64,000 nt of DNA from Gemmatimonas aurantiaca T-27 (GTDB lineage Bacteria > Gemmatimonadota > Gemmatimonadetes > Gemmatimonadales > Gemmatimonadaceae), in assembly GCF_000010305.1 (NCBI RefSeq), contig NC_012489.1:434001-498000 (forward strand). The letters run 5' to 3'. Both the position numbers and the translations under genes were made by a program. Numbering within the stretch: the first letter of the stretch is position 1; every line of letters begins with the position of its first letter. Shown here piece after piece: positions 23,841 through 46,944 of this stretch. The notes below the pieces were generated by a model. The model was given only the letters and a program-made list of their open reading frames with translations. It made no database searches and had not been told where the DNA came from.

Positions 23841-23886
23841 TTGCCGCGTGTTTCCGTGTGTTTCCGTGTGTTTCCGTGGCAAAAAA
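23841..23886. repeat. Short tandem repeat, 10-base units
   Basis: TTTCCGTGTG occurs twice and then as TTTCCGTGGC (23851-23880), preceded by TTGCCGCGTG and followed by AAAAAA. It lies between the divergent M20 peptidase and tldD. The unit and the GGCAAAAAA ending match the repeat at 5011-5031. It does not appear to be coding. The rest of the 217-base gap should hold the two divergent promoters, but none is clear. Confidence 0.65.
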
Positions 23887-23968
23887 TTGGGCATTCCGGT
23901 CTGGTTCGTGGCGAGGCGCAACCGGTGTCCCGGCAGGTATATTCCGGCTCCTCCCTCACCGCCTTCAA

Positions 23969-25603
23969 ATGCCAAGCAACCGTCGAGATTTTCTCAAGGT
24001 CGGGGCAGCGGTTGCGGCCGGTTCACTGGTCGCATCCTCGCCGCTCCTGGCGCAGACCCCTTCGGGGCTGCTCGTTCCCCACGATGACCTGCCCAAGGTC
24101 GACGATCCGGCCATCAAGGCCCTCATGGAAGCCGCGCTGAACACGGCCAAGGCCGGCGGCGCTTCGTACGCCGATGTGCGCGTGGCCGCCCGCCGCCAGC
24201 AGAACGTCAACACGCGCGATCGCATCGTGCAGGGTGTTTCCGATACCGACACGTTCGGACTCGGCATTCGCACCCTGGTCGACGGCGCGTGGGGTTTTGC
24301 CGCCACGAGCAAGCTGGACAAGGACTCGGTGGCCAAGACCACGCAGCTCGCACTGGGGCAGGCCAAGGCCAACCGCGCCAGCCAGCTCCGTCCGGTCGTG
24401 CTGGCGCCGACGCCTGGCAATCAGGTCGGTGAGTGGAAGAGCCCGATCGAAGTCGATCCCTTCAATGTGGCCATCACCGACAAGGTGGCCTTCCTGCTCG
24501 CGGCCAACGAAGCCGCGCTCAAGGTGAAGGGCATTCGCAACGTCACGTCGAGCATGTTCTTCCTGCGCGAAGAAAAGTCGCTCATGACGACCGACGGTTC
24601 GTACGTGGTGCAGACGATCTATCGCACGTCACCCAGCATGGGCGTGACGGCGGTGTCGGCGGACAACCGCGACTTCCAGTCGGTGCAGAGCAACGAAGTC
24701 GCGCCGATGGGCCTGGGTTACGAACACGTCACCAACAGCCGGCTCGCCGAACGCGCCCCCGAATGGGCCGAGCTGGCAGTGCAGAAGCTGAGCGCCAAGC
24801 CGGTGGAGCCGGGTCGCTACGACCTGCTGCTGCACCCGTCCAATCTGTGGCTCACCATTCACGAAGTGATCGGTCACCCCACCGAACTCGATCGTGCGCT
24901 GGGCTTCGAAGCCAACTACGCCGGTACCAGCTTCATCGCACCGCCCGACGCGATGCTGGGCAAGATGCAGTACGGTTCGGAACTCATGAACATCGTGGGT
25001 GATCGCGAACAGAAGGGATCACTTGGTGCCATCGGCTGGGACGACGAAGCCGTGAAGCCGGTCAAGTTCGACATCGTGAAAAACGGTGTGTTCCAGGACT
25101 ATCAGACCACGCGCGAACAGGCCACGATGATGGCCGACTACTACAAGCGTGTGGGCAAGCCAGTGCGCTCGTATGGCTGCTCGTACGCGCAGAGCTGGTC
25201 GGACGTGCAGTTCCAGCGCATGCCGAACGTGAGCCTGCAGCCGGGCAACAACGACGACACGTGGGAGTCGATGATTGCCAAGATGGACCGCGGCATCGCG
25301 ATCGTCGGCGACGGCTCGTTCTCCATCGATCAGCAGCGCTACAACGGTCAGTTTGCCGGTCAGGTGTTCTACGAAGTGCGTGGTGGCAAGATCGTCGGCC
25401 AGCTCAAGGACGTGGCGTACCAGTTCCGCACACCGGAGTTCTGGAAGGGGCTCAAGGCTATTGGCGGTCCGCGCAGCTATCACCTCGGCGGCGCGTTCGG
25501 CGACGGCAAGGGTCAGCCCGCGCAGTCCAACTCCGTGAGCCACGGTTGCGTGCCGGCGCTCTTCTCGCAGGTCAACGTCATCAACACCGGGAGGACGGCA
25601 TGA
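23969..25603 (+). CDS. tldD: TldD-family metalloprotease subunit with Tat signal
   Basis: A protein of 544 residues starting MPSNRRDFLKVGAAVAAGSL, a twin-arginine signal with cleavage after LLAQ near 31. The ATG at 23969 was chosen because it puts the RR motif at residues 5-6. The TldD metal motif HEVIGH is at 298-303, followed by DRALGFEANYAGTSF. TldD pairs with TldE to form a protease that degrades unfolded peptides and matures some modified peptides. Most TldD proteins are cytoplasmic, so the Tat signal is notable. tldE overlaps its stop by 4 bases. Confidence 0.9.
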   Translation: MPSNRRDFLKVGAAVAAGSLVASSPLLAQTPSGLLVPHDDLPKVDDPAIKALMEAALNTAKAGGASYADVRVAARRQQNVNTRDRIVQGVSDTDTFGLGIRTLVDGAWGFAATSKLDKDSVAKTTQLALGQAKANRASQLRPVVLAPTPGNQVGEWKSPIEVDPFNVAITDKVAFLLAANEAALKVKGIRNVTSSMFFLREEKSLMTTDGSYVVQTIYRTSPSMGVTAVSADNRDFQSVQSNEVAPMGLGYEHVTNSRLAERAPEWAELAVQKLSAKPVEPGRYDLLLHPSNLWLTIHEVIGHPTELDRALGFEANYAGTSFIAPPDAMLGKMQYGSELMNIVGDREQKGSLGAIGWDDEAVKPVKFDIVKNGVFQDYQTTREQATMMADYYKRVGKPVRSYGCSYAQSWSDVQFQRMPNVSLQPGNNDDTWESMIAKMDRGIAIVGDGSFSIDQQRYNGQFAGQVFYEVRGGKIVGQLKDVAYQFRTPEFWKGLKAIGGPRSYHLGGAFGDGKGQPAQSNSVSHGCVPALFSQVNVINTGRTA

Positions 25604-26988
25604 GCGCGCCTCGCTCCCTGTTTGCTCCGGCGAGCGTGCTGTCGCGCGCCGAAGCGCAGGAGATCGCGCAGCGTGTGCTGCGCAATTCGCCCGCCGAAGA
25701 AACGCGTGTGTCGATCAACAGCGGTGCGCGTGCCGATACGCGCTTTGCGCTGAATCAGGTCACCACGTCGGGTGAAAATCAGGACACGCAGATCACCATC
25801 ACCGCGTACGTGGGCAACCGTTCGGCCAGCGTGAACACCAACCGCCTCGACGAAGCCTCGTTGGCGGCGGCGGCCAAGCAGGCGCACGAGATCGCGAAGC
25901 TCGTACCGCCCAATCCGGAGCGCATGCCGGAACTGGGCGCGCAGACGTATCCGGCGTTCCGCGAGCGTGCGCTCGATATCCCCACGCCGGCGGAACGTGC
26001 GGCGGCGGCGAAGATCGTGACCGAGCTTGCACGGGCCAACGATCTGGTGGCCACGGGTTTCATCGAATGCCGCGCTGGCGCCACGGCACTGGCCAACTCG
26101 AAGGGGCTGTTTGCGTACGACGCGTCGGCCTCGGTGTCGATGACGGCGACGGTGCGTTCGCCCGATGGCACGGGTTCCGGCTGGGCGTGCACCGATGGCA
26201 ACAGCTTCGGTGAACTCGATCCCAAGCAGCTCGCCGCCACGGCGGTGCAGAAGGCCAAGGATTCGCGCAATCCGGTGGCGATTGAACCGGGTCGCTACAC
26301 GGCCATTCTCGAGCCGACGGCGGTGGGCAATCTGGTGCAGCTCATTCCGGGTGCCATGCAGGCACGAGCGGCAGACGAAGGCCGTTCGTTCTTCTCGAAG
26401 CCGGGTGGTGGCAACAAGATCGGCCTCAAGGTGGTCGACGAACGTGTCACGCTGCTCACCGATCCGGCGGACTCGCCGAGTCTGAGCGGTGGGTATGACA
26501 ACGACGGTGTGCCACTCGAGAAGGTGGTGTGGATCGAGAACGGGCTCGTGAAGAACCTGAACTACGATCGTTTCTGGGCCCAGAAGCAGAACGTGCCGGC
26601 CACGCGTGCCGGTGGTGGTGGCTTCGGTGGCACGCGTTCACTGCGCATGCTGGGTGGCTCGTCGAGCATCGCCGATATGATCAAGAGCACCGAGCGTGGT
26701 GTGCTGGTCACGCGCTTCTGGTACATCCGTGGCGTCGATCCGCGCACGATTCTGTACACGGGTCTCACGCGCGATGGCACGTTCCTCGTGGAGAACGGCA
26801 AGGTCACGCGTCCGATCAAGAACTTCCGCTACAACGAAAGCCCGATCTTCTTCCTGAACAACCTGGAAGCGGTGGGCGGAACGATGCGCATCAATTCGTC
26901 GGAAAGTGCGTCGACGGGTGGCGCGGTGTTCATGCCGCCGATCAAGGTGCGGGATTTCAACTTCACGTCGTTGTCGGACGCGGTGTAA
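25600..26988 (+). CDS. tldE: TldE/PmbA-family protein, partner of TldD
   Basis: A protein of 462 residues starting MSAPRSLFAPASVLSR at an ATGA overlap with the tldD stop, indicating coupled translation. The PmbA_TldD domain has no HExxxH metal motif, as expected for the non-catalytic partner. Conserved segments include LEPTAVGNLVQLIPGAM and a C-terminal FMPPIKVRDFNFTSLSDAV. It has no signal peptide. If TldD is exported folded through Tat, TldE either stays behind or travels bound to it. Confidence 0.9.
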   Translation: MSAPRSLFAPASVLSRAEAQEIAQRVLRNSPAEETRVSINSGARADTRFALNQVTTSGENQDTQITITAYVGNRSASVNTNRLDEASLAAAAKQAHEIAKLVPPNPERMPELGAQTYPAFRERALDIPTPAERAAAAKIVTELARANDLVATGFIECRAGATALANSKGLFAYDASASVSMTATVRSPDGTGSGWACTDGNSFGELDPKQLAATAVQKAKDSRNPVAIEPGRYTAILEPTAVGNLVQLIPGAMQARAADEGRSFFSKPGGGNKIGLKVVDERVTLLTDPADSPSLSGGYDNDGVPLEKVVWIENGLVKNLNYDRFWAQKQNVPATRAGGGGFGGTRSLRMLGGSSSIADMIKSTERGVLVTRFWYIRGVDPRTILYTGLTRDGTFLVENGKVTRPIKNFRYNESPIFFLNNLEAVGGTMRINSSESASTGGAVFMPPIKVRDFNFTSLSDAV

Positions 26989-27013: not shown

Positions 27014-27089
27014 GGAAACAGGGGGGAGTTGGAGAGATTACAGGAAGCAGGACTGCGCCCTGCGATCTCTCCAACTCCTCCCTGTTTCC
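27014..27089. repeat. 25-base inverted repeat between convergent genes
   Basis: Arms 27014-27038 and 27065-27089 are reverse complements with one mismatch around a 26-base spacer. The arms begin with GGAAACAGG and contain GAGTTGGAGAGAT. The repeat occupies the gap between tldE (plus) and the DsrE-like gene (minus). A bidirectional terminator or a dispersed palindromic element are both possible. Confidence 0.8.
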
Positions 27090-27113
27090 ATTTGATATCA
27101 GATCATTTCCGAA

Positions 27114-27833
27114 CTAAACGGCGTAGACAAAGGCGCAGCCCACTTCCTGGGCCAGCACGTTGGCGAAAATGCCTGAGGGCTGCATGATCAGACCCGGGAC
27201 GAGCATGCTCTTCGCCTTCTCGCGGGCTTCGGCGGGCGTCAGCTTGTCCTGCTTCTGCACCGTCGACACGATGCTGCGAAACGCCAGGTTGCAGCCCAAT
27301 ACGACCGCGCCCTTGGCGATCTGATTGTCGAGCATGTAGGTCGCAAAGGTGCCCGTTGGTGCGGGCGCGCCAGGCGTGGGCAACACGGGGTTGTACTTCA
27401 TCGTCTTGCCGTCATCGCCTTTGAGCTTGTACTGCTTGCCGACGTTGTAGTTGGCCCAGAAATCCTGATTCATCGCCAGCGGAATGCCGCTGTGTCGAAT
27501 CACGATGACCGGTGACAGGTCTGCCGCGGTGACCTTGAGTGCGTCGATGTACTGGGCGCCCCAGATGGCCGCGCGAAATACACCGGCACCTCCCGCAATC
27601 TCCGGCACGTCGAACATCGCCTTGTGTTTTGCGGTGACGCGCTTGGTCCAGGTCGTGTCCCAGGCTTCCTGCGGCGGCTGTTCGAACTCTGCGAGTTCTT
27701 CCGACAGGGACAGCAGCGCCGCACGCGGGCTGTTGATCGCACCGGCTTCAGCCTTGGCCAGCGAAGGAAGAGCCGCCAGGGCGGCGGCTGAGATGCCGGC
27801 CTGCTTGAGGAACGCGCGACGCGCAGAGGACAC
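27114..27833 (-). CDS. Tat-exported DsrE-like protein
   Basis: A protein of 239 residues from GTG 27833, which has GGAG at a good distance upstream and puts the twin-arginine motif SARRAFLKQAG at residues 3-13. An alternative ATG at 27947 overlaps the stop of the TonB gene but would put 38 residues before the RR. The mature part resembles the DsrE/DsrF fold: AIWGAQYIDALKV, PVIVIRHSG, GAVVLGCNLAF and the ending PSGIFANVLAQEVGCAFVYA. DsrE proteins handle sulfur or act as small carriers. The role here, behind a TonB receptor at the tail of the hydrogenase operon, is unknown. Confidence 0.7.
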   Translation of the reverse strand: MSSARRAFLKQAGISAAALAALPSLAKAEAGAINSPRAALLSLSEELAEFEQPPQEAWDTTWTKRVTAKHKAMFDVPEIAGGAGVFRAAIWGAQYIDALKVTAADLSPVIVIRHSGIPLAMNQDFWANYNVGKQYKLKGDDGKTMKYNPVLPTPGAPAPTGTFATYMLDNQIAKGAVVLGCNLAFRSIVSTVQKQDKLTPAEAREKAKSMLVPGLIMQPSGIFANVLAQEVGCAFVYAV

Positions 27834-27943
27834 AGAGACTCCGGGGCGATGGGTCGGGCGGGATGCAATCCGCGGGGATCCCTGAATGATGATCGACCCG
27901 GGAGGCGTTGTCACGCGTTGGCAGCGGACACCGGATGCCCGGC

Positions 27944-30112
27944 TCACTCCGGCGCCTGTACCGCCCCCCAGCCACCGATGCTGACCCCGAGCCGAAGCTG
28001 TCGCGGCTCCACGGGATGGAAGTGCACGTCCTCCACGCCGCCTGCCGGTTCACCACGCAGCCGCGACGCATAGAAGTACTGCACATCACGGCCGCGACTG
28101 CCCAGCAGATTCAGCACACTGGCCGTGATACGCACACCCCGCACAGGTACGCCGAGACTGGCGTTCAGCAGCGTGGTGGAGCGCCCGCGTATGGAGTTGT
28201 CTTCGATGAGCGGATGCGCGCCGAAGTGCCGCAGGCGTACTACGCCGGTCGGGCCGACCGACCACGGCGTCCACTGCACGCCGGCGGCGATGACCGATTC
28301 CAGTGCGCCTGGCACCGACTGCGCTCCTGCGGGTTCGTCCAGGTAGCGGGCTCTGGTGAACGAGACATCACCATCCAGCGCCAGCGAACGAAGCGGGCGC
28401 CAGAAATTGGCCACCGTCACGCCGGTGCGTGCACTGCGTCCCTGTGGTTCGGTGGTGCCGGCGTCACCCACGAACAGCAGCTCGCTGTCGAGGCGGAGTG
28501 TCCAGAGTGATACGGTGGTGCGCAGATCGCGTGCGCCAGAGAGGCGTAGTCCCAATTCTCCGCCACGTGACCGGACGAGCGGGTCCACCGGGTCCACGGC
28601 ATCACCGCTGACCGGGTCGGTGTGAATGGTGGTACCACGGGCATCGTTGCTGTGGAAACCCAGCCCACCTCCCACGTAGAGCTCCAGGGCGGTGGTTGGC
28701 GATACGATGATGGAGGCCTTCGGGCTGGCCAGCGTGGCGTTGCGCACACCGGAGTTTTCAGGACGGTCACTGACCACATCGAATCGATATCCATCGCCGC
28801 GCACACCGGCGGTGGTTCGCAGCCAGCGGTTCCAGCGGCTTTCGATGGTGGTCCACAGGCCAAGGCTGCCTTGCTGCACCAGATCGGCACGCACCATGTC
28901 GGTGAACGCACGGTTCTGTGTGCGGGCCAAGGAAACATCGGCATCGTCGAATCGGCCCTGCACGCCGTAACGCACCAAGTGCTGCATGCCACCCAATGGC
29001 AGGATGCGCTGCTGCTGGAGATTGAGACCGAAGATCGCGCGATCGTCGCGTTGGCGGATCTGATCTCCGCCGTCTTCGTTGTCGAGGTAATACGTGAAGT
29101 TCGAGAACAGTTCGAAATCGTACCGTACGGCATACGCCTCGAGTTGAGTGCGTGTGGTGCCGGTGGTGCGTGTCCAGTCGAGTGACAGGCTGTGGCGGGC
29201 CGTGGAGCCACCTAACGACGGGTCGATCTGCCCAAACCGGTTCACGGCGCCAACATCGACCACCCGCTCGGGGATCTGATCGGACGCGTTCCAGTGATTG
29301 AGATAGCTGAGCCCCAACAGCGACAGGCTCTGCTCGCGACCTTGCCACGAATACCGCGCCACGGCCGAACGTTTTGCCAGGCCCTGCGCCACCTGCCATG
29401 GGCCGTCATAGCCCTTGGCCTCGCCGCCAATCAGCATGGTGTGCGCACCACGCGTGCGACTGCCGGCCAGCACAGCGCGTCGATAGCCCCATGCCCCACC
29501 TTCAACCTGCGCCAGCGCCCGTGGCAGGGAGCGCACCAGGTTCAACGTGGCGCCACCGGCACTGCCGAAGTCTCCGAGCTCCGCGTAGTACGGACCAAGC
29601 GAATAGCTCACATGATCCACCAACTCCGGGATGAGCAGGTTGAGATCGGTGTACCCCTGTCCATGCGCGTGCGTGGGCAGGTTGAGTGGCATCGACTCGA
29701 TACGCGTCTGAAAATCCGTGCCGTGGTCGAGATTGAATCCTCGCACGAACATCTGGTTGGCTTTGCCATCGCCGCTGTGCTGCGTGAGAATCATGCCCGG
29801 AACAGCTTCGAGCAGCTCCCCTTCGCGCAGCAGCGGCCGCTGACGGAGATCGACACGTCCGATACGGCCCTGCGCGGCGCTGGTCGCGAGCCCCACGAGA
29901 TTGTCACGACGCCCGCTGATCTGCATGGTGCCAAGCTGCGTCGCAGAATCGCGCGCGGTGCGAGGCGCGGTGCGAGGCGCGGTGCGAGGCGCGGTGCGAC
30001 GCGTGGTGTCGGTGTTGGCGCGTTGCTGTGCGTCGACCGTGGTCGAGACGGTGACGCAGGCCAGCGTCAGCAGCAGCGCCGGTCCGTACGCGCGAAGGTC
30101 GAGCAGAGGCAT
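27944..30112 (-). CDS. TonB-dependent receptor, candidate metal uptake, in the hyp operon
   Basis: A protein of 722 residues with a Sec signal (LLLTLACVTVSTTVDAQ, cleavage near 29). A Thr/Arg-rich linker of four TAPR units precedes the plug, which has ILTQHSGDGKANQMFVRGFN and LPTHAHGQGYTDLN. A long barrel follows, ending RQLRLGVSIGGWGAVQAPE. It begins 8 bases after the hypE stop and is surely co-transcribed with the hydrogenase maturation genes. That placement, and the His residues in the plug, suggest import of nickel or another metal complex for the hydrogenase. The ligand is inference. Confidence 0.85.
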   Translation of the reverse strand: MPLLDLRAYGPALLLTLACVTVSTTVDAQQRANTDTTRRTAPRTAPRTAPRTARDSATQLGTMQISGRRDNLVGLATSAAQGRIGRVDLRQRPLLREGELLEAVPGMILTQHSGDGKANQMFVRGFNLDHGTDFQTRIESMPLNLPTHAHGQGYTDLNLLIPELVDHVSYSLGPYYAELGDFGSAGGATLNLVRSLPRALAQVEGGAWGYRRAVLAGSRTRGAHTMLIGGEAKGYDGPWQVAQGLAKRSAVARYSWQGREQSLSLLGLSYLNHWNASDQIPERVVDVGAVNRFGQIDPSLGGSTARHSLSLDWTRTTGTTRTQLEAYAVRYDFELFSNFTYYLDNEDGGDQIRQRDDRAIFGLNLQQQRILPLGGMQHLVRYGVQGRFDDADVSLARTQNRAFTDMVRADLVQQGSLGLWTTIESRWNRWLRTTAGVRGDGYRFDVVSDRPENSGVRNATLASPKASIIVSPTTALELYVGGGLGFHSNDARGTTIHTDPVSGDAVDPVDPLVRSRGGELGLRLSGARDLRTTVSLWTLRLDSELLFVGDAGTTEPQGRSARTGVTVANFWRPLRSLALDGDVSFTRARYLDEPAGAQSVPGALESVIAAGVQWTPWSVGPTGVVRLRHFGAHPLIEDNSIRGRSTTLLNASLGVPVRGVRITASVLNLLGSRGRDVQYFYASRLRGEPAGGVEDVHFHPVEPRQLRLGVSIGGWGAVQAPE
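29953..30000 (-). repeat. Four tandem 12-base units in a TonB receptor linker
   Basis: GCGCGGTGCGAG (plus-strand reading) is repeated exactly three times at 29953-29988 with a fourth copy ending GAC at 29989-30000. In frame it encodes TAPR repeats just after the signal peptide. Copy number could change by slippage without disturbing the reading frame. Confidence 0.9.
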
Positions 30113-30120
30113 GACAGATA

Positions 30121-31196
30121 TCAGCAGATCCGGGGTAGTTGTTCGCCGATGGGCGTGGTGATGACCCGACGCGCACCCAGTCCGGTGCGGGCCACGAGCA
30201 TGCCCGGGTGGTCGGCCACCACTTCGCCGATGATGGCAGCATCGACACCCAGTGCATGGGCGCGCAGTGCAGAAAGGGCGGTGTTGGCCGCATCGGCCGG
30301 CACGATGGCCAGCAGCTTGCCTTCATTGGCCACAAACAGCGGATCGAGGCCCAGCACCTCACAGGCCGCGCGCACGGCGGGGCGAATGGGAAGCGCCCGT
30401 TCTTCGAGCATGATCCCGACATTGGCATCGGCCGCAATCTCGTTGAGCGACGTGGCCACACCCCCGCGCGTGGGATCGCGCAGCACGTGCACATCGGGCA
30501 CGGCGGCCCGCAAGGCATGCACCAGCGTATGCAATGCGGCCGAATCGCTGACGATGGTGGTCTCGAACTCGAGCCCTTCGCGCTGGCTCATGATGGCCAT
30601 GCCATGATCGCCGATGCTGCCGCTCACGAGTACGACGTCACCCACGGTGGCGCGATCAGGACCGATGTGCACGTCGTCATCCAGCACGCCGATGCCACTG
30701 GTGTTGATGTACACGCCATCGCCGTGACCGCGCTCGACCACCTTGGTGTCCCCGCAGACGATGCGCACACCGGCCTCACGCGCCGCACGGGCCATGTCGT
30801 GCACGATGCGGGCAAGCTGCGCCATGGGCATGCCTTCTTCGATGACAAATCCCACCGTGAGCACCAGCGGACGTGCCCCACTCATCGCGAGATCGTTCAC
30901 CGTACCATGCACGGCCAGTGAACCGATCGTGCCACCGGGAAACTCCAACGGCTGCACCACGAACGTATCGGTGGTATAGGCGATGCGGGATCCCGGCAGC
31001 GTGAGCACGGTGGAGTCGGTGAGCGCACTGGTATCTCCCGGCGCAAACGCCGGACGGAACAGGTGTGTCACCAGTTCGGCAGACAATTGCCCGCCGCCGC
31101 CATGGCCCATCACGATGGTCGGATAGTCCCGCAAAGGCAGTGGGCAGCTCCATTCGTCGAGCGATACGGCGGTGGGCTGCTGCGCGACGGTGGTGG

Positions 31197-31200
<4 letters not shown>
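30121..31200 (-). CDS. hypE: Hydrogenase maturation protein HypE
   Basis: A protein of 359 residues of the PurM/AIR synthase fold: [15 protein letters not shown] near 32, [14 protein letters not shown] near 190, and the ending LPRIC, whose terminal Cys359 carries the thiocarbamate. HypE accepts carbamoyl from HypF, dehydrates it with ATP to thiocyanate, and donates cyanide to the iron on HypCD. Its start overlaps the hypD stop by 4 bases. All expected features are intact. Confidence 0.97.
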
Positions 31201-32308
<1,108 letters not shown>

Positions 32309-32312
<4 letters not shown>

Positions 32313-32614
32313 TGCAGGCTCGATGTTGGCAACGGACAGGACGGTGGAGGCGAATACACCTCGTCAGCCACTTCTCCGAGTTCTTCTTCGAGAATGCCCA
32401 GTGAGCGGAAGTGGTGCAGTGTCTCCTGAGCCGAGGCTTCATCGATGAGACTGATGGCGAACCCCACGTGTACGATGGCGTACTGACCGACGACGGCATC
32501 GGGCAGGTACGCGAGGCACACGTTCTTGGTGATGCCACCAAAATCCAACTTGGCCATACGCACCACGCCTTCATCGAAGATCGCGGTGATGCGTCCGGGA
32601 ACGGCGAGGCACAT
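32309..32614 (-). CDS. hypC: Hydrogenase maturation chaperone HypC
   Basis: A protein of 101 residues beginning [10 protein letters not shown], with the essential Cys2 that binds the Fe(CN)2CO fragment. The usual [14 protein letters not shown] segment is present at about 44-57 and the helical [10 protein letters not shown] end is longer than in some homologues. HypC shuttles the iron ligand complex from HypD to the large-subunit precursor. It starts 3 bases after the NHL protein gene. Confidence 0.96.
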
Positions 32615-32616
32615 CG

Positions 32617-33813
32617 TCAGGCTCCTGTCAGGGAGGGGCCACAGGTCGCCGAGAGCGACCAGAGCATCACGCGATTGTTGCCGCTGTCGGCGATCGCGAG
32701 GTGATTGTCGTGCAACCAGACGCCGTACGGCCAGCAGAGCGTGTCATCGGCCACGGCTGTCCACCGGTTTTCCCCGGCTGCGTCGAAGTTGAACTGACCG
32801 AACACTTCCTGCGCCGGCGTCTGCACGCCGCGACGGGGCATGCCATGCCAGCGCAGTAGGCGATTGTTGGCCGTGTCGGCCGTGATCAGGGTGTCCTGTC
32901 GGGCCGCCACGGCGTACGGGAAACGCAATCGATGTGCGCCTTGCGGACGATGTGGTAGTTCTTCGTTGTGCGTGAAGCCTTTCTGGCCCAGCACGAGATC
33001 GGCGGGCCGGTCGGACAGCGGCGCGGGAGTCCATCCCAGCACGCGATGATTGCCCGCATCGGCCACAAACAGCGTTTGGTCGTCGCCGCTGATCGCATGT
33101 GGCCAACGAAACGATGCGGCCGATGGATCGCCGCCGCGGTTTTCATCGCCACGTGTCGCATCATCCTGCCCCAGCACGACCTGCGCAGACTCGCCGGGTT
33201 CGGGGATATGGGGCCACCCCAGCACACGACGATTGCCCGTGTCGGCGATCCAGAACCATCCACCGGCCATCCCCAACCCATACGGCCAGTAGAGGGCATT
33301 GCCGGCGATGCTGCCACCGGCATTGGGCATGGCATCGGACACGGTCGGCTGGCCAATCGCGTACGAAGGCGGCGTATCGTTGCACGTGGGGATTTCGTTC
33401 CACACGAGGATGCGATGGTGCCAGGCATCGGCCACCAGCAGTCGTCCGTGGTGCACCAGCACACCGGTTGGCAGATGCAGGCCGTTGTCACAGCCGCGGC
33501 CACCGGCCGCCGGTCCTTCCGCGTGAAAATGTGGCTGCCCCAGTACCACATCTGCGTCCGCACCATCCTGTGACGGATGTCCGTTCCAGATGAGCACCCG
33601 ATGGTTGCCCGAGTCTGCCACCACGATGCGCTCATCGTCGAACCACACACCACGCGGAGCGTAGAGCTGATTCGCGGTGGGCTGCGCCGAGGGGAGCGCG
33701 AGTCCGAACGGCGAGGCCGCACCGAGGCGACGTAGCGGCATCGACGACGACGGTGATGCGGATCGGGCCGTCTGTGTGGCGTCCGACATCGTGGACAGAG
33801 CGGGCGAGATCAT
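32617..33813 (-). CDS. Six-repeat NHL beta-propeller protein of the hydrogenase operon
   Basis: A protein of 398 residues from ATG 33813 (MISPALSTMSDAT), whose A overlaps the upstream stop (TGATG). A longer frame to 33894 would lie inside the Rieske gene. Six repeats are visible, each with a core such as VVADSGNHRVLIWN, LVADAWHHRILVWN, WIADTGNRRVLGWP, FVADAGNHRVLGWT, ITADTANNRLLRWH and AIADSGNNRVMLW, separated by VLGQ motifs. This predicts one closed six-bladed propeller. There is no signal peptide, so it is cytoplasmic. NHL proteins accompany this hydrogenase type, probably as a binding platform; the function is not established. Confidence 0.85.
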   Translation of the reverse strand: MISPALSTMSDATQTARSASPSSSMPLRRLGAASPFGLALPSAQPTANQLYAPRGVWFDDERIVVADSGNHRVLIWNGHPSQDGADADVVLGQPHFHAEGPAAGGRGCDNGLHLPTGVLVHHGRLLVADAWHHRILVWNEIPTCNDTPPSYAIGQPTVSDAMPNAGGSIAGNALYWPYGLGMAGGWFWIADTGNRRVLGWPHIPEPGESAQVVLGQDDATRGDENRGGDPSAASFRWPHAISGDDQTLFVADAGNHRVLGWTPAPLSDRPADLVLGQKGFTHNEELPHRPQGAHRLRFPYAVAARQDTLITADTANNRLLRWHGMPRRGVQTPAQEVFGQFNFDAAGENRWTAVADDTLCWPYGVWLHDNHLAIADSGNNRVMLWSLSATCGPSLTGA

Positions 33814-34703
33814 CAGGTTGGACGCAGTTGCACCCGACCGCCGTCCACCCGCACGGGCAGCGCTTCGAGTTGCGCCTGTGGGGCGGAGAGACATTCACCC
33901 GTTCCGCAGTCGAACCGGAACCCATGCCAGGGACAGGTGATGGTGCGCGCTTCACGGTCCACCATGCCGCCATCAATGGGCAGTCCCATGTGCGCGCACT
34001 CATTCCAGTAGGCGGTGATGGCGTCATCGAGCCGCAGGATGACGATGCTGCGCCCGTCGGCCACTTCATGACGGTAAGGGCGCGCATCCTGCAGTTCTTC
34101 GAGCAGCGGACCGTCCACCCACCCATCACCACGCGGGGCGCGGGTGAGTGTCACGAAGGCGGCAGCGGCATCGGGTTCGTTGGGCACGACCTCGATGCGC
34201 GTGATTTCGGGAACCTGTTCCTTGAGCGCCTCCTCGATGCCATTGCGCAGTGTCACCGACGACATACTGCAGCCATTGCACGAGCCGGACAGCTTCACGA
34301 ACACCGTATCGCTGGTGACGTCCACGAGCGTGACATCACCGCCATGGGACTGTGTGTACGGGCGAAGGTTCTCCACCACGCGGGCCACCCGGGTGCGCAT
34401 ATCGGCTTTCACAATGCCGTGCAGCGAGAGGAGCGCGTACACACCCGGATCGTCGATCAACTCGAAAAGCAGTTCCTTGCCACGGGGGTCCTGCTTGAGC
34501 GCACGCACGATGGTGGTGAGCCCCGCCTTGTGAAACGCTTCGAGTGCGTCCTTGAGCGCCAGGGCACGCGTGCGTTGATCGATGGGCATACCACGCACGT
34601 CGTCGAGCGTGCGTTGCACATTTGTGGCCAGTGTTTCGAGCGTGGCGTCGCTGGTACCGGAGGGCGATGCCGATGCGACCGGCAGAGGGGCGGTGGCTGT
34701 CAT
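33813..34703 (-). CDS. NifU-domain and Rieske-domain fusion iron-sulfur protein
   Basis: A protein of 296 residues. A helical N-terminus is followed by a NifU C-terminal-like domain with SCNGCS at about 155-160 (the CxxC that binds an Fe-S cluster), and a Rieske-type [2Fe-2S] domain with CAHMGLP and CPWHGFRFD near 238-268. The NifU-Rieske architecture corresponds, from memory, to the HhyE/HucE-type proteins encoded with high-affinity hydrogenases and proposed to carry electrons from the enzyme toward quinone. It ends at a TGATG overlap with the NHL gene and starts 5 bases after the 129-residue protein. Confidence 0.88.
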   Translation of the reverse strand: MTATAPLPVASASPSGTSDATLETLATNVQRTLDDVRGMPIDQRTRALALKDALEAFHKAGLTTIVRALKQDPRGKELLFELIDDPGVYALLSLHGIVKADMRTRVARVVENLRPYTQSHGGDVTLVDVTSDTVFVKLSGSCNGCSMSSVTLRNGIEEALKEQVPEITRIEVVPNEPDAAAAFVTLTRAPRGDGWVDGPLLEELQDARPYRHEVADGRSIVILRLDDAITAYWNECAHMGLPIDGGMVDREARTITCPWHGFRFDCGTGECLSAPQAQLEALPVRVDGGRVQLRPT

Positions 34704-34708
34704 GACGC

Positions 34709-35098
34709 TCAGTCGACCACCTGGAAGGCCAACCGCTGCTCCAGCGCTTCCTCCGCCTTCGTGGACAGGATGGTTGCGAATCCCCGTCGTGCGGTGAGTT
34801 GCATCCAGTCGCCGATGGTCCGCGCCTGGCCGTGCAACATCGCGGCATCCGCGGCGGGCAGAGGACGCCGAGCGAGTGATCCGAGCACGAAGGCCGCCCC
34901 GGCGGCATTGTCGAGCAGGAAGTCGGTGAACAGGGCGGAGACAAATTCATCCACCCAGACCCCGTCGCTGTTCGGATCGAGACGCAGCCGCGTGAGCGCG
35001 GGCACGGGACCACCACAGCGCTGCTCGATGCGCTCGACAAAACGTTCGACGGCGGTGTTGAAGAAAAAATCGAACTGCTGCCGTTCGTGCACGTTCAT
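34709..35098 (-). CDS. Uncharacterised 129-residue protein of the hydrogenase operon
   Basis: A protein of 129 residues, mostly helical and acidic, with no Cys pairs, membrane segment or signal. It begins MNVHERQQFDFFFNTAVERF and contains GVWVDEFVSALFTDFLLDNA. Its start overlaps the stop of the TPR gene by 4 bases and its stop is 5 bases from the NifU-Rieske gene, so it is translated as part of the operon. Its family was not recognised. A hydrogenase-specific chaperone or assembly factor is a reasonable guess from position only. Confidence 0.75.
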   Translation of the reverse strand: MNVHERQQFDFFFNTAVERFVERIEQRCGGPVPALTRLRLDPNSDGVWVDEFVSALFTDFLLDNAAGAAFVLGSLARRPLPAADAAMLHGQARTIGDWMQLTARRGFATILSTKAEEALEQRLAFQVVD

Positions 35099-36300
35099 GA
35101 AGGAACTCCGGCGGTGGAGAGTTGTCCGTTGATCAGTTCGAGCTGCTCCAGCAGTCGCTGCGCCGCGTCGGCTTCACCATGCCAGTGCAGCAGCTTGTGG
35201 GCCTCGGTGAGCTTCTCCACGGCGTGCCCGAAAATGCCCAGATGGGCGAGCGCGTTCCCCTGATTGGCCAGGATGCGGGCATACCCCACCGGATCCATGG
35301 CACGGGGGCGTACGGTCAACAGTTCTTCATAGGCTTCGACGGCCTGCATGAGATTCTCCTGCCGATGCCCCGACGGCATGTACTGCATGGCGTTGGCCAT
35401 GTTGAGCATGGTGCTGGCCCATTCATCCGCGTTGGTTTCGCGATCGTACACGCTGAGCGCTTCGCGGAAGGCCTGTACCGCAACGGCGAGGCGCAGTTTG
35501 TCTCCAGCTTCCGACATCGGCATCGCGACATAGGCAATGCCCAGGTTGGACTGAATGCGCGCCCAGAGCAGTGGATGCGATTCACGATCGATGCCGGCAC
35601 GCAGGGCCTGCTGATACAGTTGTGTCGCCTCGACGAGTCGATGTCGCCGCGATTCGGCGATCTGATGCACCACCAGCGCGTACCCACACAGCAACTCTGC
35701 TTGCAGGCCCGGCAGCGGAGTGTCCCCGGCCAGCGCAATCGCGTCCTTCCAGAGCGCTTCTGCCTGCTCCCCGGCCTCCTCGAGCCCGGCACGCTGGGCG
35801 AGTAGCTGCGCGGCGAGCAGCGGAGAGACCACCCGCGCCGCGGCGATGCCAGCATCGAGCTCGGTCGCCGACGCCGTGAGATCGCCGGTCTCCAGTGCAT
35901 GGCTCGCGCTCACCAGACGTGCATGGCCCGCCAGTTCGCGATCGAGCAACGACCAATCCGGTTCGCGATATTCGTCGCCCAAGACAAAAGCCGCCATCCG
36001 TGTCAGCGCAGACAGCACAGGATCGCTCCCCGCTTCAGCCTGGGCGCGCTCTGCGGGTTCCCCGGACAGCACGTAGCGGTTGTAGTGCGCAAGCTGACTG
36101 TCCTGCGACGCCAGCAACGACAGCGCGAGATCACGGTCGTTGCGACACGAGGCTTCGAAGAAATGCCAGGCCTCGGGCCAGCTCTCGGGTGTTTCACCGC
36201 GGAGCAGCGCCGTCAGCGCGGGCTGATCCGCGTCCACCGCCGGCAACAGCAACAGGCCGGTGGGATAGGGAAACACGCCGATCGGTTGGGGGCGGATCAT
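35095..36300 (-). CDS. TPR protein of the hydrogenase operon
   Basis: A protein of 401 residues, rich in Ala and Leu, with helical repeats of TPR type across about 120-390 (for example LWARIQSNLGIAYVAMPMSE, EWASTMLNMANAMQYM and YARILANQGNALAHLGIF). The N-terminal PIGVFPYPTGLLLLPAVDAD is not TPR. No signal or membrane segment is seen. It overlaps its neighbours on both sides by 4 bases. TPR proteins commonly scaffold complexes, so a part in hydrogenase assembly is likely but inferred. Confidence 0.85.
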   Translation of the reverse strand: MIRPQPIGVFPYPTGLLLLPAVDADQPALTALLRGETPESWPEAWHFFEASCRNDRDLALSLLASQDSQLAHYNRYVLSGEPAERAQAEAGSDPVLSALTRMAAFVLGDEYREPDWSLLDRELAGHARLVSASHALETGDLTASATELDAGIAAARVVSPLLAAQLLAQRAGLEEAGEQAEALWKDAIALAGDTPLPGLQAELLCGYALVVHQIAESRRHRLVEATQLYQQALRAGIDRESHPLLWARIQSNLGIAYVAMPMSEAGDKLRLAVAVQAFREALSVYDRETNADEWASTMLNMANAMQYMPSGHRQENLMQAVEAYEELLTVRPRAMDPVGYARILANQGNALAHLGIFGHAVEKLTEAHKLLHWHGEADAAQRLLEQLELINGQLSTAGVPS

Positions 36301-36653
36301 GAGATATCCGTGAAAGAGTGCGTCGTCATCTGCGTCGTCATCGACGAAGCCGGGACCAGCGCGACGCGCAGGGCGCCACGCTCATCGTCCCAGAATGCCG
36401 GCAGGTCGCCCGTGGGGCCGTCGTCGTGCAGGACCTCGCGTACGAGCACGCTGCGATCACCGGCCGGGTTGCGCTGCTTGAGCAACAAGCCACCACCGCC
36501 TGGTCCACGGGTGGGCAACAACCAGAGTTCATTGCCACGTGGCATGGCCAACAACGTGTCGGCGGGAAAGAAGCGCTGCGCGAGTGATACCGGCAGCACG
36601 AGGTATCCGTCACTGCGCAATTGCACCGTGAACGGCGTGGCGTTGGAGGTCAT
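36297..36653 (-). CDS. Uncharacterised 118-residue protein next to the hydrogenase protease
   Basis: A protein of 118 residues starting MTSNATPFTVQLRSDGYLVL. The ATG at 36653 overlaps the stop of the protease gene; the longer frame to 36824 is inside that gene. The first half (FTVQLRSDGYLVLPVSLAQR, then LWLLPTRG) faintly recalls a swapped-hairpin AbrB-like fold, and the second half holds LLLKQRNPAGDRSVLVREVL. No cysteine motif or membrane segment is present. Four-base overlaps on both sides tie its production to the protease and TPR protein. Confidence 0.75.
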   Translation of the reverse strand: MTSNATPFTVQLRSDGYLVLPVSLAQRFFPADTLLAMPRGNELWLLPTRGPGGGGLLLKQRNPAGDRSVLVREVLHDDGPTGDLPAFWDDERGALRVALVPASSMTTQMTTHSFTDIS

Positions 36654-37144
36654 GACACGGCCTCCTGCACCGCGATGGCGGCATCCACTTCCTGCATCAA
36701 CAGGTCGGCCACGCGATGCATGGCCGCATCGATGGCCGGTGAGAGCGGCGCACCGGGATCGAACTGGGCTCCTTCGATGAGCCACACGTCGATACGTGGC
36801 GGGTAGTCTTCCTTGAGCGCCCACCGCGCGAACGCCAATGCGTGATCCCAGCGAAATGCATGCAGGTTCACGCCGGCCAGCGGCGGGGTTTCCGCGTCAC
36901 GCCCATCCAGTCGGAAAATCGCGCCGGGTTCGGAGCCGCTGCGGCAGGCGTCCACGATGATGACGTGTGGCACGCCCCGCATCTGAAATCCGACATCCAT
37001 CCCGCCCGTTCCACCGTCGGCACAACGCACGCCGTGCGGCACCCCTCGATCCCAGAGGTGCCGCACGAGAATGGGGCCGACCGCATCGTCGCCGCGCAGC
37101 AGGTTGCCGCAGCCAACGATGAGTACGCGGACCGAATCGTTCAT
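36650..37144 (-). CDS. [NiFe] hydrogenase maturation protease
   Basis: A protein of 164 residues of the HycI/HupD family. GCGNLLRGDDAVGPILVRHL at about 11-30 contains the first nickel-binding acidic residue, and VDACRSGSEPGAI near 77-89 the second; a His follows in NLHAFRWDHAL. It cleaves the C-terminal tail of the large subunit once nickel is inserted. The matching substrate, the large subunit with a 19-residue tail, ends 21 bases upstream. It overlaps the next gene by 4 bases. Confidence 0.93.
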   Translation of the reverse strand: MNDSVRVLIVGCGNLLRGDDAVGPILVRHLWDRGVPHGVRCADGGTGGMDVGFQMRGVPHVIIVDACRSGSEPGAIFRLDGRDAETPPLAGVNLHAFRWDHALAFARWALKEDYPPRIDVWLIEGAQFDPGAPLSPAIDAAMHRVADLLMQEVDAAIAVQEAVS

Positions 37145-37165
37145 CGAGACCTCATGCTCCGCCCC

Positions 37166-38791
37166 TCAGCCCATCTCTCCTATGCGGAAACGGGAGAGCT
37201 CCTTGCCGGTCTTTTCGTCATAGGCATGCACCGTGCACACGAGGCAGGAATCGTACGAACGGGCCACATGTCCCATCTCGATCGGGTCGGTGGGATCCTG
37301 AATTTCGGCGCCGATGAAGGCCGCCTCCATGGGGCCATGACGGCCCAGGCGATCGCGCGGTCCGATATTCCAGGCCGTCGGGGTGATCACCTGGTAGTTC
37401 TCGATCTTGCCGTCGCTGAGCACGATCCAGTCGGAGAGCGATCCGCGAGCGGCTTCGGTGGAGCCAAAACCACGACCACTCTCGAGTTCCACCGGCTTGT
37501 TGTAGAACCGGTCGTGCAGGTCGATCTGGTCGAGCCAGGAACGCACGAGACGGAAGTACTTGGGTGCTTCGTGCATGCGCGCCATCACGCGGGTGAGGAT
37601 GCTCGGTCCCACCGTTTGAATGGCGTCGAGAATGAACGGATCGTAGTCCTGATGCGCGGCGGCATCACCACGACCGGCGATGATCTGCCGCGCCAGCGGG
37701 CCGGCTTCGAGCGGAATCGCTCCCTTGCCGGGCACGTCGTACCGCGGCGACTTCGCCCAGGAATACTTGCCCTGCTTGTGGCCATCGAGCGGATCGATGG
37801 GATCGGTCTCACCCTGCCACGGATGCAACGACTTGTCACCACGATAGAACGAATGTGCGGTGTCCTCACGCACGTTCAGGTGATCGAAGTCGTGGAACGC
37901 CGATCCGTCGTAAATGCCGGCGCGGCTCATCAGCGCGGCGTTGCGCCCTTCCACCGTGGGACGTTCGTACAACTTGGGATCGAAGAACGTGCCGGTAGAG
38001 AGAAACGCGCCCACCCCCTGACCGTACTTGTCGAGACCGGCCCGTTGCGCGAAGCGGATGAACAGGCCGCAGTCGGAGTTGCGCTGCGATTCGTTCTCTT
38101 CGGCCCAGGCGAGCATGTCGTTCCAGCTCTTGATCTCAAGCCAGCGGTCGATGGAGCAGCCGAGCCACTGCTTTTCGAGCCACTCGCGCCGCCACATATC
38201 GAGAATGGCGATGGAGCGGGTCACGTCGGACAGCGACGGCGCGCACATCACGCCGCCCGGAATCATGAAGCTCGAGTGTGGCCATTGTCCGCCGAAGATC
38301 GCGTACACTTCCACCGGCTTGGCGGATAGCGTGACCCCTGGCTCGAAGCTCGTGCCGACAAAGGGCGCAAAACGCTTCACCACCTCGTCGTACTCGGGCA
38401 GGTGCGCGTACTTCTTGTTGATCAGGTCCACCGCAAACAGCGCATAAAACCAGCGCGGGATGGACAGCAACGTTTCACACGCCTGCGCGATGTTGCGAAT
38501 GAGCGTGGCGTTGTGTGGCAGGTGCGTCTTCCACGCCGTGTCCAGCGCGTAGGCCGCCTTGTAGAGGTGTGAACCGCCGCAGATGCCGCAAATGCGCGGC
38601 GTGACGATGAGACCGGCTTGCGGATCCTTGCCGCGCAGGATGATCTCGAATCCGCGGAACATGCTTGCTTCGGTCCATGCATCCGTGACAACACCGTCGC
38701 GAATCGTCACGCGCAGGTCGAGATCACCCTCCACGCGCCCGAGAGGGCTGATGCGCAGGTCGGAGGGCATGGGCTGAGTCGCCGTGGCCAT
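37166..38791 (-). CDS. hhyL: [NiFe] hydrogenase large subunit, group 1h-like
   Basis: A protein of 541 residues from ATG 38791 (MATATQPMPS); the frame to 38863 overlaps the small-subunit gene. The N-terminal nickel motif RICGIC supplies Cys68 and Cys71. The C-terminal motif DSCLVCTVH supplies Cys516 and Cys519, with cleavage expected after His522, releasing a 19-residue tail. The usual Pro before the third Cys is Ser515. The enzyme oxidises H2. Lack of a cytochrome b gene and the accessory set around it point to the oxygen-tolerant, high-affinity group 1h (actinobacterial type). Group assignment is by motif memory, not by a tree. Confidence 0.92.
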   Translation of the reverse strand: MATATQPMPSDLRISPLGRVEGDLDLRVTIRDGVVTDAWTEASMFRGFEIILRGKDPQAGLIVTPRICGICGGSHLYKAAYALDTAWKTHLPHNATLIRNIAQACETLLSIPRWFYALFAVDLINKKYAHLPEYDEVVKRFAPFVGTSFEPGVTLSAKPVEVYAIFGGQWPHSSFMIPGGVMCAPSLSDVTRSIAILDMWRREWLEKQWLGCSIDRWLEIKSWNDMLAWAEENESQRNSDCGLFIRFAQRAGLDKYGQGVGAFLSTGTFFDPKLYERPTVEGRNAALMSRAGIYDGSAFHDFDHLNVREDTAHSFYRGDKSLHPWQGETDPIDPLDGHKQGKYSWAKSPRYDVPGKGAIPLEAGPLARQIIAGRGDAAAHQDYDPFILDAIQTVGPSILTRVMARMHEAPKYFRLVRSWLDQIDLHDRFYNKPVELESGRGFGSTEAARGSLSDWIVLSDGKIENYQVITPTAWNIGPRDRLGRHGPMEAAFIGAEIQDPTDPIEMGHVARSYDSCLVCTVHAYDEKTGKELSRFRIGEMG

Positions 38792-38832
38792 GGCTATATG
38801 CTCGAAATGGAAGGTGAGAGGAGTGAGGCGGC

Positions 38833-39804
38833 TCAGACGACGAACATGTCTTCCTTGCTCCACTTGGGCGCCGCGATGCGTGCGGCGGCCGCATGGGCCA
38901 TGTACGACACGTGGTCGGTGCCGGTGGGCACTTCCTTCGGAATCGTGCCACTCACCTTCTGTGTCTTGAACACCGTGCCAGGCTTGAGATCATGGAACGG
39001 GAATTCGGGCTCGGTGCAACCGGTGCAGGGCATGCCGGCGCGAGTCTTCGATGACTGCCGGTTCCACAGAATGCGATTGCAAGGCGAGTGGGTCATCGGA
39101 CCGCGGCAGCCGAGTTCGTAGAACAGGCACCCCTGACGCGTGCCCTGACCGAACTCCATGGTGCTCTGCTTGTACTCGAAGTACTGCACCCGCGTACAAC
39201 CGGTCTGCGTGAACGTCTTGAAGAACGTCTGCGGGCGCTGCAGATCGTCGAGCGCGATATCGCCCGCTCGTCCTGCGGAGATGGCCACCAGGATCTGCGT
39301 CACCCAGTCGGGGTGTGTGGGGCAACCGGGGATATTCACCACGGGCAATCCCCACTTGGAGCGGAAGTCACTGCCCAGGAACCCGCCGTGTTTCCGCTTG
39401 AGATACTGCAGGCCAACGTTGTCGACCGGATTGGGCTCGGTGGCCGGGATACCGCCCCAGCAGGCACAATCGCCGAGTGCCACCACGGCCCCCGCATGCG
39501 ACGCCAGCTCTCTCACCCAGTCCATCATCGGGCGATCGGCAAACATGTTGAACCGACCGGTCTTGTTGGGACCCAGGATGACGGTGCCCTCGAACACGAA
39601 GATGTCGAGCTGCCGCTTGCCGGACGCGAGATCATTGAGCATCTGCTTCACCGGCTCGCCCATCTCATAGCCGAGTGATGGATGCCAGAGAATGTCGATG
39701 CCGAAGTCAGTCACGAGATCGCACGCGCTCGGCTCTTCGGCATTGAGGAAGGACATCGTGTTGCCGGAACACGCACCACCCTGCAGCCACAGCACCGTTG
39801 CCAT
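38833..39804 (-). CDS. hhyS: [NiFe] hydrogenase small subunit, group 1h-like
   Basis: A protein of 323 residues from ATG 39804 (MATVLWLQGGACSGNTMSFL), preceded by GGAGAA. There is no Tat signal and no C-terminal membrane anchor, so it is cytoplasmic. Proximal-cluster ligands include Cys12, Cys113 or Cys115, and Cys161 (NIPGCPTHPDW). The position of the usual second N-terminal Cys is Asn15, as in actinobacterial-type enzymes whose proximal cluster has three Cys and one Asp. Cys226, Cys233, Cys242, Cys260 and Cys263 serve the other clusters. It passes electrons from the NiFe site to acceptors, probably the NifU-Rieske protein. Confidence 0.92.
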   Translation of the reverse strand: MATVLWLQGGACSGNTMSFLNAEEPSACDLVTDFGIDILWHPSLGYEMGEPVKQMLNDLASGKRQLDIFVFEGTVILGPNKTGRFNMFADRPMMDWVRELASHAGAVVALGDCACWGGIPATEPNPVDNVGLQYLKRKHGGFLGSDFRSKWGLPVVNIPGCPTHPDWVTQILVAISAGRAGDIALDDLQRPQTFFKTFTQTGCTRVQYFEYKQSTMEFGQGTRQGCLFYELGCRGPMTHSPCNRILWNRQSSKTRAGMPCTGCTEPEFPFHDLKPGTVFKTQKVSGTIPKEVPTGTDHVSYMAHAAAARIAAPKWSKEDMFVV

Positions 39805-39967
39805 GTGAGGAAGTTCTCCGGGAAACAGCCGGTCACGCCGGCAGGGAATGGGAGAGGAGGGAGGGGCCACACCGTGCAGACACTGGCGTGGGTCGGTGTC
39901 ACAATGCGAAGGCCGGCAACGCGCAACAATAGCAAGAACTAGGTAGGCGCCCGGTCGTGATGGTGAC
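39805..39967 (-). promoter_or_regulatory. Probable promoter region of the hydrogenase structural genes
   Basis: This 163-base gap is the largest inside the operon and separates the response regulator gene from the small subunit gene, so an internal promoter is likely here. It holds ACACCG (39869-39874) and CGGTGT (39894-39899) as an inverted pair, and a small GCCGG-TCACG-CCGGC hairpin near 39824-39838 just upstream of the Shine-Dalgarno. No convincing -35/-10 pair was found. Confidence 0.4.
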
Positions 39968-40609
39968 TCAGGTGGGCGTTTGCAGCACGATCAATCCCTG
40001 GCTGGCCGCGATGCGCACCAGCTCCACCTGATTGTGCACATTCAGTTTCTGCATGAGGTTGGCGCGGTGTCGCGTGGCCGTGTGTGGGGAGATGTTCAGT
40101 GCCTCGGCCACGGCACTGGTTGTCAGGCCATTGGCGATCAGTTGCAGTACTTCGCGTTCGCGCGCCGTGAGAGACACCGGGCGCATGCGGGACTCCTGCA
40201 GGCGGGCCCGGTCGATGGCTGCGGCGAGATAGCGTTGGCCCCGCAGCACACTCTCGATGGCAAAGAACAGCTCATCATCCATCGAGTCCTTGAGCAGGTA
40301 GCCATCGGCACCGGCGCTCAGGGCCTGTCCCACCAGGTGAGTTTCGTCGTGCATGGACAGCACGAGGACGCGTGTCGTGAGTCCTTTGGCCCGCACGCGT
40401 CGCAACGTCTCGAGCCCGTCGATACCCGGCATGTTGAGGTCGAGAATCACGAGATCCGGGCGCTCGGCCTCAATGAGCGGAACGGCGGCCTCTCCTGTGC
40501 CCGCCTCCCCCACGACATCGTGACGACCATCGAGGCGCAGCAACACGGCGAGTCCGCGGCGCACCAGCGAATGGTCGTCCACGAGTACGACCCGTGTCCG
40601 GGTGTTCAT
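39968..40609 (-). CDS. NarL/LuxR-type response regulator in the hydrogenase operon
   Basis: A protein of 213 residues. The receiver has VVLVDDHSLVRRGL and the acceptor Asp57 in VILDLNMPGIDG. A LuxR-type HTH lies at about 147-205 (LTAREREVLQLIANGL, then NISPHTATRHRANL). It overlaps the upstream histidine kinase gene by 4 bases, making a clear cognate pair. Position directly upstream of the structural genes suggests it activates or tunes hydrogenase expression. Confidence 0.94.
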   Translation of the reverse strand: MNTRTRVVLVDDHSLVRRGLAVLLRLDGRHDVVGEAGTGEAAVPLIEAERPDLVILDLNMPGIDGLETLRRVRAKGLTTRVLVLSMHDETHLVGQALSAGADGYLLKDSMDDELFFAIESVLRGQRYLAAAIDRARLQESRMRPVSLTAREREVLQLIANGLTTSAVAEALNISPHTATRHRANLMQKLNVHNQVELVRIAASQGLIVLQTPT

Positions 40610-42282: not shown

Positions 42283-42301
42283 GTGGCGGTGGGCAGCAGA
42301 C

Positions 42302-43015
42302 TCAGTGAGCCGCAAGCCGTTGCGCGTGCCACTCGGCACGCCACTCGGCGCGTCGGGCATCCAACAGCGCGAGCCAGTCTTCGAGCCCGGCACCGGTACG
42401 CGAGGAGCAGGACAGCACCGGCATGCCTGGCCGAACGGATGCGATGGCAGCTTCCGCGGCTTCGCGGTTGAACTCGCAGGCCACGGCAAGATCGGACTTC
42501 GTGACCATCGCGATGTCGGCCGAGTTGAACATCGTGGGATACTTGAGCGGCTTGTCCTCGCCTTCGGTCACGGAGAGCAGCACCAGCCGCAGCGCCTCGC
42601 CAAGATCATACGAAGCTGGGCACACGAGATTGCCCACATTTTCCACGAAGAGCACCTCGATATCCTCGAGTGCCCATCCGTCGAGATGGGCATCGATCAT
42701 CTCGGCCTCGAGGTGGCAGCGTCCGTGGGTGTTGATCTGCCTGACCGGCGCCCCGCTGCGCGCCAGGCGCTGCGCGTCGTTGTCCGTCTCCAGATCGCCG
42801 ACCAGTGCTGCCACCCGCACGCCACGCTGGTGCAGCGCTGTGAGGGTCCATTCGAGGAAAGCCGTCTTTCCTGTTCCAGGACTCGACACGAGGTTCACCA
42901 CAAAAACACCGGCGGCCTCGAACCGTGCGCGCAGGCCATGTGCCAGCTCGTCATTCTTGCGAAGAATGCCGGCACGCACGGCAACGATGCGCGACGTGGG
43001 CATGGTGGAGGTCAT
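42302..43015 (-). CDS. hypB: Hydrogenase nickel-insertion GTPase HypB
   Basis: A protein of 237 residues. The P-loop SSPGTGKT is at 44-51, with [17 protein letters not shown] (metal-binding Cys-His region at the dimer interface), [16 protein letters not shown], and KSDLAV for guanine recognition. The N-terminal CxxCGC nickel site and His-rich tract of some HypB proteins are absent. It delivers nickel to the large subunit with HypA. It overlaps the hypA stop by 4 bases. Confidence 0.96.
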
Positions 43016-43437: not shown

Positions 43438-43449
43438 GATGTGAGTGGA

Positions 43450-44238: not shown

Positions 44239-44359
44239 GCAGTCCCTCCGGAAACGGGATCGGGGTGAGGTGCGGCTACGTTATGTGCCGGCGCCGCCCA
44301 GTGTTATGGCAAGATCATGCTATTTCCAGCGAGGTTGCCCACCGACGACGTTAGCCCAC

Positions 44360-46939: not shown

Positions 46940-46944
46940 CCGTC

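Follow-up and report, generated by a model that had tools for sequence, protein, structure and literature searches.

Whether the TonB-dependent receptor gene at one end of a hydrogenase gene cluster in Gemmatimonas aurantiaca T-27 provides the outer-membrane entry for the nickel of that hydrogenase is the question raised by this locus. To our knowledge, outer-membrane nickel uptake by atmospheric-hydrogen oxidisers has hardly been studied, and few TonB receptors for nickel have been proven by experiment. The locus was analysed in a window of 64,000 nucleotides (the whole stretch of DNA under analysis) from the T-27 genome, which is a single contig of 4,636,964 bases (4.64 Mb). Judged from sequence comparisons, the receptor probably (at about 70%) serves as an outer-membrane nickel entry, the substrate being probably a small nickel chelate and possibly also cobalt, and would supply the high-affinity group 2a [NiFe]-hydrogenase. 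Nickel import is considered probable because relatives of the receptor adjoin nickel regulators and nickel pumps, and because the receptor ends the hydrogenase cluster.

The huc operon contains the small and large hydrogenase subunits, a protease, a TPR protein, a NifU-Rieske protein, an NHL protein and hypCDE (Table 1). This content fits the group 2a hydrogenase known from G. aurantiaca (hucL = GAU_0412), an enzyme with demonstrated oxidation of atmospheric H2 (PMC7784904), and no second hydrogenase large subunit was found in the T-27 genome. As the sequence-only reading had stated, the receptor starts 8 bases after hypE; the gap is exactly 8 because hypE occupies 30121-31200 and the receptor frame 27944-30112. 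The HX4DH permease that it had placed next to hypF is also real, with a Pfam NicO match above the cut-off and the motif HAFEPDH at 46999-47019.

Table 1. Features of the huc-hyp-NicO island and its surroundings (positions in the window).
Feature	Position	Strand	Evidence or remark
tldD and pmbA-type genes	23858-26988	+	convergent with the Tat gene across the genus
Tat-exported protein, unknown family	27114-27833	-	outside the proposed nickel route; tldD-pmbA neighbourhood
TonB-dependent receptor, 722 aa	27944-30112	-	signal peptide, low-complexity RTAP repeat, plug, 22-strand-type barrel
VHFHP (H697, H699), before last barrel strand	28013-28027	-	each in 73/73 relatives; placement inferred
Barrel segment FHSND (H487)	28643-28657	-	73/73 relatives; predicted extracellular strand end, from model strand list
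Plug segment THAHGQGY (H148, H150)	29651-29674	-	H148 in 70/73, H150 in 73/73 relatives
Plug segment QHSGDGKANQ...NLDHGTD (H112, H130)	29714-29782	-	each in 73/73 relatives
hypE	30121-31200	-	TIGR02124, E 2.2e-128; 8 bases upstream of receptor
hypD and hypC	31197-32614	-	profile matches
NHL-repeat protein and NifU-Rieske protein, huc operon	32617-34703	-	profile matches
Maturation protease, [NiFe]-hydrogenase large and small subunits	36650-39870	-	group 2a hydrogenase of T-27
hypB	42302-43015	-	assigned from sequence and position
hypA	43012-43437	-	Pfam
hypF	43940-46939	+	homology across the genus; frame runs upstream past the true start
NicO-family nickel permease	46945-47628	+	PF03824, 40.8 bits, cut-off 27.7; other island edge

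The receptor, which is single-copy in the T-27 genome, has both the Plug domain (Pfam, E 7.5e-7) and the beta barrel of a TonB-dependent receptor. An alignment-based AlphaFold2 model (mean pLDDT 88.4, pTM 0.86) shows a plug and about 22 barrel strands. The model has the plug-barrel architecture of TonB-dependent transporters, and its best matches in a Foldseek search were PqqU (top, 9c4o, E 1.9e-32, TM-score 0.75/0.82), FecA and FoxA. An in-frame tandem repeat at 29950-30005 encodes RTAP units in the mature N-terminus.

Among 73 relatives, seven histidines (112, 130, 148, 150, 487, 697 and 699) are each kept in at least 96%; the conservation of H130 is partly a product of how relatives were selected, because this residue, alone among the seven, falls within a search pattern. 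On the model, the seven appear to lie in plug loops and at the predicted outer ends of barrel strands. The plug segment with two histidines that had been pointed out earlier, LPTHAHGQGYTD, was located at residues 145-156 and contains H148 and H150. This pair is a family-wide signature, common also to members with other neighbours.

Homologous regions were annotated in about 17 genomes of the genus. A block of M20 peptidase, tldD, pmbA, the (convergent) Tat gene and a GNAT gene is kept whether or not a hydrogenase is present, and the island running from the receptor and hypE through the hydrogenase to hypA and hypF-NicO is contiguous, including in other species. In sister species the huc-hyp island (27944-47628, receptor to NicO) occupies two distinct insertion points that lie close together: in T-27 it is flanked by the Tat gene and the GNAT gene, whereas in G001 and G004 its flanking genes are the M20 peptidase and tldD. 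The differing sites therefore make the receptor the outer edge of the island and assign the Tat gene to the tldD-pmbA neighbourhood; either the island or the three-gene block may have moved.

The receptor and the hydrogenase tend to occur together. Among genomes at least 90% complete, a hydrogenase is present in 6/6 with the receptor versus 1/8 without it (Fisher P-value = 0.002), and over all 25 genomes in 6/8 versus 3/17 (P-value = 0.01), both values ignoring shared ancestry. In one of the six co-occurring genomes (G008) the hydrogenase is of another kind and lies apart from the receptor. Two further genomes outside the six have the receptor with the hydrogenase undetected (G002 and G007, assemblies 84 and 79% complete). 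The receptor is not obligatory for the hydrogenase, since islands in two sister genomes (G006 and G016) are without it and retain NicO. NikR is absent from the T-27 genome, and no match over the family cut-off was found in the genus, so nickel regulation is at most putative there. Urease as a nickel sink was rejected, as the genus gave only matches of 21-26 bits over about 40-50 positions, which were taken as other amidohydrolases; this leaves the hydrogenase as the obvious nickel enzyme.

The sequence-only reading had further proposed that the receptor, a Tat-exported DsrE-like periplasmic nickel carrier and the permease form one dedicated route, a proposal that now appears very improbable. 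The Tat signal (SSARRAFLKQAGISAAALAALPSLAKA) is real, the Tat gene adjoins the receptor in T-27 and lies 1-2 kb from it in G021, and in G002 the receptor and a 29% paralogue are convergent. However, the Tat gene stands beside pmbA and about 22 kb from the receptor in G001 and G004, and it is retained beside tldD-pmbA in genomes without receptor or hydrogenase (for example G005, G011, G013, G015 and G018). The suggested search for conserved pairs of receptor and Tat protein yielded no relative of the latter on plasmids or in the 80 listed receptor loci. DsrE homology was likewise undetected: neither the Tat protein nor any of 20 homologues matched Pfam DsrE (PF02635), and a comparison with genuine DsrE proteins by hhalign gave a probability of 2.6%, the aligned stretch including the conserved cysteine. 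The two cysteines invariant among the homologues, C180 and C232, would be compatible with a DsrE-type active site. A PDB profile search with the Tat protein found no relative, and a single-sequence AlphaFold model of it reached a pLDDT of 38. The thiosulfate dehydrogenase TetH (NCBIfam) was rejected as an identity for this protein, at 17.7 bits against a cut-off of 300.

The likely start of the Tat gene is the GTG at 27833, not the GTG at 27947 that overlaps the receptor, because the alignments of close homologues begin near it and just upstream lies an SD-like CGGAG; the gene thus begins 110 bases after the receptor stop, without overlap. Its adjacency to the receptor in T-27 probably reflects where the island came to lie. 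The Tat protein is exported, belongs to the tldD-pmbA neighbourhood by genus synteny and plays no part in the proposed nickel route. In the same neighbourhood, the first tldD-type gene (23858-26988 region) bears its own Tat signal (NRRDFLKVGAAVAAGSLVAS), and the exported TldD, the PmbA-type gene and the Tat protein (27114-27833) together form a neighbourhood conserved in the genus. A long inverted repeat at 27017-27090 (AACAGGGGGGAGTTGGAGAGAT ... ATCTCTCCAACTCCTCCCTGTT) separates pmbA from the convergent Tat gene and is probably a shared terminator.

Beyond the genus, relatives about 40% identical to the receptor adjoin nikR, HoxN, hyp/hydrogenase genes or HupE/UreJ permeases in several phyla. 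Relatives on plasmids repeatedly have nikR, HoxN or hydrogenase genes at their side: the order is nikR-hoxN-receptor in Paraburkholderia, HoxN-receptor-cybH-HupUV in Bradyrhizobium and hypF-C-SIS-D-E-B-TauE-nikR-receptor on pHCG3, and nikR also stands beside a relative in Comamonadaceae, Methylomagnum, Polymorphobacter and Methylocystis. About 10 further genomes among the matches listed likewise have nikR there. A genome-wide scan gave at least 80 receptor loci from several phyla. With HMMs built here, nikR, HoxN, hyp/hydrogenase or HupE_UreJ_2 was detected within 5 kb in 29/80 among the matches listed, leaving 51/80 listed relatives, with most Gemmatimonadota outside the genus among them, without a nickel gene of the tested kinds at that distance. 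A Pfam census of 136 immediate-neighbour frames of the listed loci, made without pre-chosen families, was topped by NikR_C (7) and HupE_UreJ_2 (6). Nickel genes are enriched more than fourfold near the listed receptors (26/283 bins at 0-2 kb versus 7/305 at 6-10 kb, P-value = 3e-4), and nickel contexts are spread over most clades in a tree of 98 receptors. A recurring module of receptor, HupE_UreJ_2 permease and DUF4331 exported protein was also seen (L089-L092, L119, L120 and L147).

The closest described counterpart is a predicted nickel/cobalt TonB-dependent transporter (TBDT) cluster, 987, with Bll6948, Daro_3944, RPA_4757 and pHCG3_081 (PMC3400609). The nickel/cobalt predictions are credited to Rodionov et al. 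2006 (PMC3400609; PMC7142613), and the predicted family also appears in PMC7142613 and PMC11247825. The sole family member found on pHCG3 shares 37% identity with the window receptor over 88%; as the single match on the plasmid it is most probably pHCG3_081. The family very probably corresponds to the predicted cluster, and through the pHCG3 receptor the window receptor thus joins a known, largely untested kind. Cluster 987 is linked to nikR, hup and hox genes, and the window receptor similarly adjoins hypE with NicO at the other end; it differs in coming from Gemmatimonadota rather than Proteobacteria, in standing without NikR and in its tie to a group 2a atmospheric-H2 hydrogenase. NikR regulation, as in the predicted family, has no counterpart in this genome or genus, but is taken as typical rather than strictly defining because many members are without nikR nearby.

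Other systems resemble the locus in part. Helicobacter pylori FrpB4 and FecA3 are NikR-regulated nickel TBDTs. They are comparable with the window receptor in proposed function and TonB dependence and differ in their NikR regulation. CntO, the metal-pseudopaline receptor, is encoded in the operon that makes its metallophore. It has the TBDT fold and chains so named give a weak barrel match (E 2e-4), but no metallophore operon was seen near the window receptor. A receptor relative (44% identity) on C. necator pHG1 lies 4 kb from the HoxN permease and the regulatory hydrogenase, although other hydrogenase groups and the NiCoT type are involved there. FrpB4 has been assigned to a heme-type cluster (PMC3400609).

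Two rival readings of the substrate have to be weighed against nickel. NicO and HupE permeases can carry cobalt, and an import of cobalt complexes or cobalamin-type ligands, with the position in the island accidental or secondary, would agree with the nickel/cobalt label of the literature cluster (PMC3400609), with BtuB, which besides PqqU is one of the nearest solved structures, giving one of the best sequence matches in the plug region, and with a relative in M. extorquens CM4 near TBDR-ABC and cobalamin synthesis genes. We regard this reading as rather improbable: the relatives have nikR and hydrogenase genes as neighbours far more often, the vitamin B12 receptor profile TIGR01779 scores 16.4 bits on the receptor, far below its cut-off of 599.7, and no cob genes were seen in the window cluster, which has nickel-enzyme maturation genes. 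The CM4 relative (L177) is a plasmid gene of this Methylorubrum strain.

It also seems unlikely that the receptor is a hitch-hiker of the island with a siderophore, PQQ or another chelate as substrate. PqqU is its best structural match and closest solved structure, PQQ dehydrogenases occur less than 10 kb from some relatives, and the 51/80 listed relatives without a nickel neighbour would agree with such a role. The PqqU equivalog NF041535, however, did not match the window receptor at E 0.01 and reached 43-49 bits in its relatives against a cut-off of 1200; PQQ dehydrogenases stand near 4/80 listed loci versus 29/80 for nickel genes, and the nickel contexts extend over the whole tree, not one clade. 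Judged by neighbourhoods, a siderophore or PQQ role is less likely.

The comparisons show the gene order, the behaviour of the island, the linkage of the family to nickel genes, the conserved histidines and the fold of the receptor. For nickel import, we infer a substrate, a pocket geometry, a direction of transport and a link to hydrogenase activity that would combine as follows. A nickel complex would bind the histidine-rich outer face formed by plug loops (H112, H130, H148 and H150) and barrel loops (H487, H697 and H699), and TonB energy would move it into the periplasm. The NicO permease would then carry Ni2+ into the cytoplasm, where HypA/HypB would insert nickel into the hydrogenase. The genes for the receptor, maturation, the hydrogenase and NicO are passed on together as a single movable island, bounded by the receptor on one side and NicO on the other. 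The earlier proposal of a nickel route dedicated to the hydrogenase is retained as far as a receptor for nickel (or a nickel/cobalt complex) travels with the island and NicO stands at its other edge.

Several genes beside the receptor relatives deserve mention. In two Gemmatimonadota/Longimicrobiales MAGs, peptide-synthetase condensation genes lie directly beside the receptor (L081:1051-3714 and L086:2950-3438), a possible metallophore link. Small His-rich proteins, probably secreted and without a Pfam match, are encoded directly upstream of the receptor at L082:9299-9796, L084:4865-5314, L086:181-678 and L149:9226-9744, and in Verrucomicrobia (L088, L089, L096 and L112) another small membrane protein occupies the upstream position. 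On a speculative view, to which we give little credence, Gemmatimonadota might possess an outer-membrane module that is detachable, being gained and lost at the edge of the atmospheric-hydrogen island, and whose seven-histidine face recognises a nickel metallophore dedicated to it, and the peptide synthetases of L081 and L086 could make this metallophore.

The receptor family itself is already known as a prediction, and what is new here is the phylum and the absence of NikR. The proteobacterial nickel/cobalt TBDT prediction would thereby be extended to another phylum, and the locus provides a specific candidate nickel receptor in a cultured species with measured hydrogenase activity.
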